From NCBI GenBank assembly GCA_027604685.1, contig JADHYX010000023.1:1-64000 (forward strand): a stretch of DNA of 64,000 nucleotides. The letters are read 5' to 3'. Below are positions 36,875 through 41,777 of the stretch, one piece after another. Under the pieces are notes generated by a model. The model saw nothing but the letters and a program-made list of their open reading frames with translations. It was not told the origin of the DNA and made no database searches. Within the stretch, counting starts at the first letter, position 1; each line of letters begins with the position of its first letter. The position numbers and the translations under genes are program-made. The DNA comes from Lobulomyces angularis (Eukaryota > Chytridiomycota > Chytridiomycetes > Lobulomycetales > Lobulomycetaceae).

Positions 36875-37440
36875 GGCGATCATAAAAATTTTTAGAAGGT
36901 TCAATTCTACTGAAATTGTCAATTTAAAATTCAATAAATCGAAAAATATCTTTTTTTTACTTAATAAACATAACGAATTAATTAACTTGAAGGTAAATCG
37001 AAAAGGGATTCAGATTTAGTTGAAATTTAAAACAAATAAAAAAAAAAAAAAAATCAAGACAAACGCTGAGGATGCAGGATTTAATCCCATGAAATTATTG
37101 TTAATATCTTTAGGAGGTTGCTCTTCGTTGTCTGTTTCCTCAATTCTCAAAAAACAAAAACAAGAAATTTCAAATTTTCAAGTAGAAGTTAAAGGAACAC
37201 GAGAGGGCGACTATCCTAAACCATTTAAGTTTATTGAAATGAGGTGGGTAACAATTATTTAAATAAATGGTGTGTTATTTTTTTAAAAAAAAAAGGTTTT
37301 TGGTCGAGGGAAAGAACTTAAACAAAGCAAAAGTAAAGAACGCTTTTCAATTAGGAATTAATAAATACTGTGGTGTTCATGCTTCTTTGAATGCAAAAAT
37401 ATCCTTTGAAGTTGAAATCAAAGAAGAACCATTGGAGTAA
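36875..37440 (+). CDS. OsmC/Ohr-family protein, probably mitochondrial
   Basis: Small thiol-peroxidase-fold protein. Exon 1 (36875 on) reads MAIIKIFRRFNST, a basic start with an RRF-ST motif resembling a mitochondrial cleavage site. A very short intron (about 27 bp, GTAAAT to GATTTAG at about 36993-37019) is the simplest join to the conserved part: NAEDAGFNPMKLLLISLGGC (peroxidatic Cys at the start of the long helix), ILKKQKQEISNFQVEVKGTR and EGDYPKPFKFIEMRF. The second intron (about 37241-37294) leads to KNAFQLGINKYCGVHASLN, carrying the second conserved Cys, and the end FEVEIKEEPLE-stop at 37438-37440. Both redox cysteines are present. It fits the YhfA-like OsmC subgroup rather than Ohr by its GGC/YCGVH pattern. 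The N-terminal exon is less certain than the domain. Confidence 0.85.
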
Positions 37441-37856: not shown

Positions 37857-40800
37857 ATGGTCAAGATTGACATATTGGTAGAAGGTGGAGTCTCTTTTAT
37901 ATTCATACTCGCAATTATAGCTTCTATATTGTTACCAATATATGTCAACGAGAGTGGAAATTTGTCAAAAATTGTAAAGGAATATTCAATTAAATCCAGC
38001 GGTTCTGGTAAGAATAAATTTCAATTAAAAAAACCAATTTCCCTTTTTTTTTCATAGCATTTCCAGCGGCTATTTATAAAAATTTATTTGAAGGATACGA
38101 AAAATTATATTCAAATGTTCAATATTTCAACAGTTATGATATAAATGAAAATTTTACTGAGGTTCAACTTGAATTATTGAATGGAGATATAATATTTGCA
38201 TCCAGAGAAAGCAAATTAACCAATACTGTTACACCTAACGATTTAAACTCTGAAACATCAGCAAACTTGGGAGAGCTAACGTTTCCCGCTTTTGGAACAG
38301 CAATAGCAATTGTATACAATTTGCCGTTCCTGAAAGATGTAACTTTAAATTTGACTTCAGATGTTTTGGGGGAGATTTTTAGTGGAAACATTTTATTTTG
38401 GAATGACAAAAAAATTACAGACTTGAACAAAAACGCAAATCTTACTAGTGAATCACTTATTCCTGTGGTTTCGCCTAAACATAAATGCAATCAAGCTTTT
38501 TTTAAATATTTGAGTACTCACAGTAAAAATTTTAGCTCAACTCTGTCAGATGATTGGCCGAATGATTTTCTTAACGTACAAGATGAGTTAAGGGTTATGT
38601 TAGCTGTAGAAACCCTAAGTAACGCGATAGGTTTTGTTACCACAAATACCCTAACGGCACTAGCAACTTCGAATCATGAGTTTATGGTGGCAGCAATACA
38701 GAGAACGGCTTTAGAAGATCCGACGTTGCCTTCATTGGAAAATATCAAAAAAGCAATGGAGGTTCATTTTACTAGCGAGAATTCCAGTAACATAAGAATT
38801 ATTGATTCAGTCAATAAAGGATCGTATCCAATTTCTTTTTTGCAATTTGCTTTCACTAGAAACCATTACCTATTCAACAACCCAAAATTATTAAACCAGG
38901 ACGAAATTAAGAATCAATGTGAAATTGTGCTTGAAATGGTTAAATTTTGGAATTTTACACTTCAAAGCAAGGAAGCGAGTGTAATTTTAAATAGTTATGG
39001 GATGGTCCAAATCGAAAGTTCTTTAAGAAATAATTCCTTAGAAGCTATTTCTTTGATAACTTGCAATAGAATAAATTTATATAAAGGCTTACAGAAATCA
39101 ATCGAGCAAGCTTCTTATTATATAAAAAGTTAATTTAATTTAAAAAAAAAAAATATTTAAATTTGTTTTTGTCTATTTTAGATCCGTTAATGTTAACATG
39201 GAAAAAATCAACGGATTTTTGGAGTAATTTAACAATAGTTTTTCAAGAAGCAATTTTAGGAGGGTTTCTTTATGTTTTGATGTATGGATTACTATTTTTT
39301 TCAACAACAGCTTGCTTTCTTTATCACTTAAAAATTTACAACGACTCGCTAAAGGAAAAAAAAAATAAAGCAGTCGCGAAAAATTTTGCACAAAGACTGC
39401 AAAAGGAGCAAAAGGAAAAGAGCGAAGATATTACTGAGGAAGAAAAATTTGAAGAAATTTTAGCAAAAAAGGGACCGAAAAGTTTAAAGTTACTAGGCAC
39501 CAGTGATCAAAAAACAAAGCAAGCTAGATTGTCAACACAAAACCTTTTTGCTGTTATCAGTTCTTTATTGACATGTCTTCAGTTAATGCACTTGTCACTT
39601 TCGGGAAGTCAACTCGATTTAGAATATTATCCTGTGTATCAGTTTGTTTCTTACGGGAGTTTACTATTTGACAAAAATATTGTCTATTTTTGGGCGCTAA
39701 CTATAGGAGTATTTACATGGCTATTTGGTATGATATTCATCATTTCAGTTAGACCATACCTTCAAGAATTTTATCCAATTTTGATGGAAAAGTACGAATT
39801 TCTCAATAAGTGGCTGGCCTTATTTTTACCAAATTATGCAGCAATTTTTTTCACTCCAACCATCGAAGTATTGGCAAAGGCTTTTGAGTGCAGATATACA
39901 CCAAATCATGTATTTATCAGTAGCTTTGATCCTCGAGCGGTCGATATTACCTGCTACAGCGGAGTTCACTGGGTTATGATTATAGCATCTCTTTTATTTA
40001 TGAACTGTTTTACGATTGCGGTTATTAGATTTTCCACAATTTTGAAGGTAAGTTATGATTAATCTACGTTATTAATAATATTTCTTATAAATTAGGCATT
40101 TCGTCAAATTTTTGATCTTAAAGACGAACCTTGGCTGATAATTTATGAACCTTACATAAAGTGCATCTTAGTTATTGCATACTACAATGTTCCACATGTT
40201 GCCTATTTTATTTCGAGCATTATCTTGATGTCACTAACTGTTGCACTACTATACCAATTTAAACCAAACGCGCACAGATGGTTTGACGTACTTCGTGCAA
40301 CCCTGTACGGTTTTAACTGCGTAATATGTGTGATACTTCTAATTATTGAAGTAGCAGTTCCAGAAAATAATTTTCAAGTGAAATCACTGATTCGTGAAAT
40401 CTTTTCAACTGTTGTTTTAGCGATCACTTGTGCTGGAGTTCTTTTCATTTTGTATTTTGTAAATAAAAAATTTAAACCTATTATATCAGCAGAGGATGCA
40501 AAAAAAAGGAGAAACGAAATTGATAAGCTGTTTAAGGCTATTAGGTTTTAAATTTTTTCAATTCTTATGTTTATCTTATTCAATTTTTTTTTTCTTATTT
40601 TAGTGATGGAGATGCAATGGGTCACTGGGACAGTATTGAAATGCTAAATAATAATGGGGGTTCTCGAAAGGCATCAAATTTACTGGAAACACCTGGGCTG
40701 TCTAACCGAAGAAATAGAGAATCCTTCAAATCTTCTTTTAGCGAAGCAAGTCCAGAGGCACCTGGAAATGACAATTTTAAACCGCGCTCATCAAGAAGTT

Positions 40801-41777
40801 ATGATGCTAACAAGCCTCCTCGAGACATATTGAAAAACAGTGTGGATGTTTCGGAGCAGGATGAAGAAGATTCTACTCCAGGACAAGGAGACCTCGAGGA
40901 GGCTAAGAGAAATGAAGTAAGCAAATTTGTTGACTCAAGCAGCTTGGAGAGAAAGCAATCCATTGTCCCTCCCAGCTTTGGGCCCTCAATCAATTTTATA
41001 TCTCCATCACCGAGTAGAAAAAGTAGCCTCGCAGGAGGTACTACTAGTAGTAATGGAAGACGACGAAGTATTATGCAGAGTGTAATAAGTTACGGGTTAG
41101 GAGAGCCTGAATCCTTAATATCATCTAATCTACTGACCCCAATCGCAAAGGAGAATCGGAGGAGAAGTTATGCCGACAATACAAATAAACCAGCTTTTTT
41201 TAATCCTAGTCTTTCCGGAAATAAACTGATACCTAACACTGTGGGAAACGGAAGAAGAACCAGTTATGCACCAAGTGATGCTAATACATCTAATTCACAA
41301 CTTACAACTGGAAATAACAATTTGAAAAATAATTACTCGGTCTCGAAGGTTTCTGTTGCGCCGTCACTGAGTGTAAGAAATCAAAATTTATGTAGTAATT
41401 CTTTTTAATATTTCATAATTATTATCAAATATGATATAGAACTTTCCGTGGAACGATTTTAGAGATTTGGTGGTTAAAGCCAAACTATCTGGAATCATTA
41501 GTACAGATTTGAGTCTTTCACTATTGGAGGAAATAGAAAATGAAGGTATATTTGAATTAAATAAAATTTTTATTTTTTCTATTTTGTAGATCTATTTATT
41601 GTATTACTGTTTAAAAGAAGTGAAGGGAATTTTCAAAAGTTCATATATCTTATGAACAAAAAAGTATCAGATATTATAGGTACAAAGCGGTACGGAAATG
41701 CAGCAATGCGAAGTAGTAATTCAATGTTAGCTTCCAGTTCCAATAAAGGAATTTTGATGGAAGAGGATGAAGATTGA
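37857..41777 (+). CDS. PstS-like phosphate-binding domain fused to a multi-pass membrane domain (candidate receptor)
   Basis: One gene of six exons. ATG at 37857 opens with a hydrophobic signal/anchor (VSFIFILAIIASILLPIYV). Then comes a PstS-type periplasmic-binding-protein domain: KSSGSAFPAAIYKNLFEGY, GDIIFASRES, LTFPAFGTAIAIVYNLPFL, LTSDVLGEIFSGNILFWND and SNAIGFVTTN, with typical PstS order and spacing. After a short intron (39131-39180) there are about eight hydrophobic segments: LGGFLYVLMYGLLFFST; after a basic cytosolic-type loop LFAVISSLLTCLQL; VYFWALTIGVFTWLFGMIFI; LFLPNYAAIFFTP; WVMIIASLLFMNCFTIAVI; VPHVAYFISSIILMSLTVAL; LYGFNCVICVILLIIEV; and FSTVVLAITCAGVLFILYFV. A Ser/Asn/Arg-rich tail of about 270 residues follows, then a folded-looking end (NFPWNDFRDLVVKAKLSGI, LFIVLLFKRSEGNFQKF), stop 41775-41777. 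Joins: 41360-41440 uses the strong donor GTAAGA. The usual SDGSGT phosphate loop is altered (SPKHKCNQAF). Inferred role: sensing of phosphate or another anion at the cell surface. Confidence 0.88.

Follow-up and report, generated by a model that had tools for sequence, protein, structure and literature searches.

The described systems closest to the gene presented here fall into three groups. Among bacterial binding proteins, X. citri PhoX contacts phosphate through Ser34, Ser62, Asp80, Arg159, Gly164, Thr165 and Asn201 (PMC5439949), while the SAR11 PstS, which lacks the ligand arginine, still binds phosphate via Gly174 and Thr175 (PMC12421899). In early-diverging fungi, SPPG_06488 of Spizellomyces punctatus was reported to carry PBP_like_2 (PF12849) on a glutamate-family GPCR, at a domain cut-off of E 0.1 (Krishnan et al. 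2012, PMC3251606), and class C GPCRs of gut fungi bear type II SBP domains resembling sugar-binding proteins (Seppala et al., PMC5168858). Finally, the nine-helix membrane domain of fission-yeast Pkd2 lies between a putative outer lipid-binding domain and a cytosolic tail (PMC11277609). Our literature search for PF12849 in fungi led to one paper, PMC3251606. Flytrap receptors in fungi are already known; what may be new in the gene described below is the membrane partner.

The gene lies in a window of 64,000 nucleotides from the chytrid Lobulomyces angularis, where it occupies positions 37857..41777 of the + strand (stop included), as do all its features listed here. It consists of seven exons (37857-38007, 38058-39128, 39182-40047, 40096-40544, 40604-41372, 41440-41545 and 41590-41777) separated by six GT-AG introns of 50, 53, 48, 59, 67 and 44 nt, and the spliced frame of 3,600 nt encodes 1,199 aa. 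The introns had been called in-phase; they do keep the frame, but their phases are mixed, and the length of just one, at 48 nt, is a multiple of three. The protein begins with a hydrophobic segment at residues 12-30 (37890..37946; hydropathy 2.71), the expected signal peptide or anchor, followed by a PstS-type binding domain, about nine hydrophobic segments and a Ser-rich tail.

The gene itself is real. The deposited protein HK099_001098 (P0001, 1,303 aa) from the chytrid Clydaea vesicula (Lobulomycetales) contains the same 1,199-aa protein, with two differing tail residues (I/N and F/L, window ~41140-41205), which may point to a separate assembly or isolate, and 104 extra N-terminal residues ahead of it. 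An OsmC-like gene is located directly upstream (window 37020-37440), and in HK099_001098 it is fused to the PBP gene. This merger was rejected: the OsmC profile is matched through its last position, seven residues short of the ORF's own stop, and OsmC is taken as a separate gene because joining it would require an intron of 404 nt, while the introns of the window gene span 44-67 nt. The merger in the NCBI model is probably an annotation error. At the other end of the gene, the C-terminal stretch FPWNDFRDLVV...FIYLMNKK (window 41440-41774) looks ordered by eye and had no match in a Pfam scan at E up to 10.

The binding domain, the membrane domain and the tail share one spliced frame and recur as the same protein inside HK099_001098, in agreement with the original prediction of a single gene. 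The junction between the PBP exon and the membrane exons is intron 2, first placed at 39131-39180 and here corrected to 39129..39181. It is the only frame-joining GT-AG pair found at this junction (lengths 42-71 nt), and its score of 11.5 ranks second among the 23 candidate joins in the window. A split at this point had been named as the outcome to watch for, and the splice-site check instead favours one gene. It is very improbable that two adjacent genes, one for a membrane-anchored PBP and one for a separate membrane protein, were misjoined by gene prediction. The unspliced PBP frame does run into a stop at 39131-39133, as two genes would have it; however, the intron is well formed and joins the frames, the gap between the PBP and membrane frames is just 53 nt, and HK099_001098 joins both parts, though the same model also has the doubtful OsmC merger. 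The fusion of PBP and membrane domain is regarded as likely.

The PstS-like type II binding domain extends over residues ~34-407 (37956..39128, broken by intron 1). Residues 44-310 match PF12849 with E 1.8e-8, above the family cut-off, and a PstS HMM scores the gene product at 71.9 bits, while the best among 1,000 shuffles reaches 4.9, which bears out the proposed domain type. A structure model of exon 2 only, with the first strand absent, adopts the anticipated PstS fold (pLDDT 69.3, pTM 0.72), yet it was guided by 53 PstS rows and so is not independent evidence for that fold. This is the one PF12849 match in the species' own genome (20.76 Mb, 533 contigs), and the closest bacterial PstS proteins are distant, with best tblastn matches of 22-27% identity in plasmids and 24-30% in phage records. 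In sequence profile and predicted fold the domain belongs with PstS, but it is fused in one frame to other parts rather than being the free protein of a PstCAB importer.

The phosphate site gives a different picture. The PhoX ligands, shifted by 24, correspond to positions 10, 38, 56, 135, 140, 141 and 177 in E. coli numbering. Positions 11 and 139 of the same numbering we also take to be phosphate ligands. Across 85 bacterial PstS, conservation reaches at least 95% in eight of the nine columns. Alignments with the 85 sequences leave just one of the eight conserved phosphate-ligand residues of PstS in place, F11; the replacements are S38 by I, D56 by E, S139 by H, G140 by K, T141 by C and N177 by E, with R135 becoming S or V depending on the alignment. 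In the ninth column, T10, the gene product has A. In three alignments the PstS phosphate loop R-x-DGSGT is replaced by SPKHKC (residues 189-194, 38471..38488), which sustains the earlier remark that the loop is altered and that the ligand may differ. PstS-type phosphate binding by this domain is unlikely, judged from these substitutions, and an anionic ligand is possible because the replaced loop is basic. The loss of ligand columns was also considered as a special signal and was rejected as such: the other columns conserved to at least 95% are kept at 26 of 73 in two alignments and at 23 of 73 in the third, and one of eight against 26 of 73 gives p 0.26 (p 0.43 in the third alignment).

The suggestion that the gene encodes a phosphate sensor is weakened because only that one conserved column is kept. 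We consider it quite unlikely that the altered site has retained binding of phosphate or of an organic phosphate, even with the PstS homology, the basic character of the loop and the ability of SAR11 PstS to bind phosphate without the ligand arginine in its favour; the Gly-Thr pair that SAR11 PstS keeps (PMC12421899) is Lys-Cys here.

The membrane domain (residues 436-816, 39265..40455, broken by intron 3) was delimited by hydropathy and loop charge. The multi-segment character anticipated for it holds, but the count of about eight gives way to nine hydrophobic segments after the PBP, at residues 436-454, 529-547, 579-597, 619-637, 671-689, 710-728, 731-749, 766-784 and 798-816, of which that at 710-728 is weak. 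The loop after the first segment is 74 residues long. With nine segments, the predicted inside loops carry 24, 14, 20 and 19 K/R per 100 residues and the predicted outside loops 3, 9, 0 and 15, although one predicted outside loop (15.4) is as charged as the weakest inside loop (14.3). Nine segments put the tail inside and eight would put it outside, so the weak segment decides. The PBP has 10 sequons against 7.2 expected, a weak excess that is reached in 16% of shuffles, and the tail has 2 against 7.1, a number undercut or reached in 1.6% of shuffles; both are in loose agreement with a PBP outside the cell and a tail inside it.

In Pfam scans run to E 1 and to E 10, no family reached its cut-off on the membrane domain, and the sub-threshold matches to ResB (E 0.0016) and 5TM-5TMR_LYT (E 0.0092) were not used. 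A PDB sequence search with this domain returned no matches at E up to 10, and its single-sequence AlphaFold model is all helical but poor (pLDDT 45.7). A possible likeness to protist TRP-like domains, in a Cys-containing outer loop and a Glu-Lys pattern in the sixth segment, was set aside as lacking Pfam support: PF06011 (TRP membrane domain) was not matched in either of these scans, and genome searches with PF06011 and PF08016 found nothing but matched in no control either.

Relatives of the gene were sought among 5.8 billion protein sequences with the whole protein, the membrane region and the PBP core (residues 119-222), and only HK099_001098 was returned; 7,998, 7,515 and 81 candidates were scored, respectively. 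The search relies on exact shared words of 5 residues, at most 100 of which are drawn, and in the case of the whole protein scoring was limited to the candidates with most shared words, so it reaches close relatives and can miss distant ones. A scan of viral_contigs yielded 9 pattern matches and 0 relatives, and a second copy of the membrane part or the PBP part was not found in the own genome. By searches that reach close relatives, the gene is found in one species only.

Class C receptors offer a described fungal parallel. One alternative is a strongly diverged class C GPCR, a fusion of the SPPG_06488 type whose seven-helix domain is not recognised by Pfam and which signals through G proteins, and the window gene does have the N-terminal flytrap of such receptors, of type II and not of the ANF type. 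PF12849 on a glutamate-family receptor has been reported in another chytrid (PMC3251606), and the own genome contains 35 matches to 7tm_3 (PF00003) at E up to 10, with SBP_bac_1 upstream at two loci. The window gene, however, is not one of these 35, and the Pfam scans, to E 1 and to E 10, show no 7tm_3 in it, while the control locus L005 matches in the same scan with E 5.6e-22. With a small HMM built on three class C loci it scores -6.1 bits, while two other loci reach 15.9 and 7.7, and a class C profile comparison gives it 1% probability, both being weak tests, as one of the two controls of the profile comparison reached just 3% and went unrecognised. The nine segments, one of them weak, and the 74-residue loop after the first may also count against a seven-helix receptor, and a diverged class C GPCR is in our view unlikely.

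Class C GPCR-like loci are numerous in the genome; in one of them, L005, the ORF preceding the membrane part encodes filamin and EGF-like domains. SBP_bac_1 (PF01547) has four matches in this genome, three of which lie upstream of 7tm_3 on the same strand within ~0.5 kb, on contigs C103 (L006, L102) and C367 (L103, L104). These loci are likely two class C receptors that carry type II binding domains, and the arrangement looks like the fusions reported by Krishnan et al. and by Seppala et al. The window gene differs from the SBP_bac_1 loci in its binding domain, and its membrane domain has no 7tm_3 score.

The tail (residues 817-1199, 40456..41774, broken by introns 4-6) is predicted to be cytosolic, and its composition and motif counts were compared with shuffles. 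R[RK]xS occurs six times in its 383 residues, whereas 10,000 shuffles average 0.52 and none of them reaches six; SP/TP sites are not enriched (6 vs 4.05). The long Ser-rich tail with many RRxS-like sites was thus correctly described, and the control by phosphorylation ascribed to it is plausible from the motif enrichment: regulation by basophilic kinases would fit these sites.

Taken together, the domains suggest a single-gene surface sensor, with an outer flytrap for a probably non-phosphate ligand, a nine-helix membrane domain and a phosphorylation-tuned cytosolic tail, a reading that we regard as evenly poised between holding and failing. It builds on computed features, namely one frame, a PstS-type domain that has lost the phosphate ligands of PstS, some nine hydrophobic segments and a tail enriched in R[RK]xS; from these we infer orientation, ligand binding, coupling and output. 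The PstS-derived flytrap would sit outside the cell and close on a small ligand, probably not inorganic phosphate, and its movement would pass to the nine-helix membrane domain, which may signal or conduct, while basophilic (PKA-like) kinases would tune the cytosolic tail. The original idea of a ligand-binding module wired to a membrane receptor keeps its footing in the PstS-like and multi-helix domains of one protein, but loses much of the phosphate role; receptor or channel activity rests on layout because the searches, which reach close relatives, found none for the membrane domain.

The same parts could belong to a solute transporter that includes its own binding protein; the flytrap would then hand its ligand to the nine-helix domain for transport into the cell. 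PstS-type proteins serve importers, and about nine helices would suit a carrier. A transporter is nonetheless improbable, as the membrane domain matches no transporter family and a site-rich tail would be more typical of receptors and channels.

Bacterial binding proteins were apparently turned into receptor ectodomains on more than one occasion in early-diverging fungi. A membrane partner outside class C, if true, would mean that flytraps can be coupled to more than one kind of membrane output, and would provide a specific protein through which to study sensing by a swimming chytrid, whereas a diverged class C receptor would be one more member of a described kind.

Bacterial PstS and PhoX agree with the binding domain in sequence profile and fold, but they serve an ABC importer as free proteins and have a conserved phosphate site, whereas here the domain is fused and the site replaced. 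SPPG_06488 (PMC3251606) is likewise a chytrid protein with PF12849 N-terminal to a multi-helix membrane domain; its membrane domain was assigned to the glutamate (class C) family, while the window gene lacks a 7tm_3 match, and the two are likened by description. The gut-fungal receptors (PMC5168858) also join an outer type II binding domain to a membrane domain in early-diverging fungi but, unlike the gene here, place sugar-binding-like SBPs on class C seven-helix domains. The Pkd2 outer domain is a putative lipid-binding one, and the window gene has no Pfam TRP match; still, Pkd2 (PMC11277609) has the order of outer binding domain, nine-helix membrane domain and cytosolic tail predicted here from hydropathy and loop charge. 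We lean towards a channel-type rather than a G-protein output because the layout is most like that of Pkd2. More specifically, and with clear doubt, a bacterial type II flytrap may gate a nine-helix Pkd2-like domain, making up a receptor class of its own: a fungal ligand-gated channel whose origin, through fusion of a bacterial binding protein, would be separate from those of class C GPCRs and ionotropic glutamate receptors.
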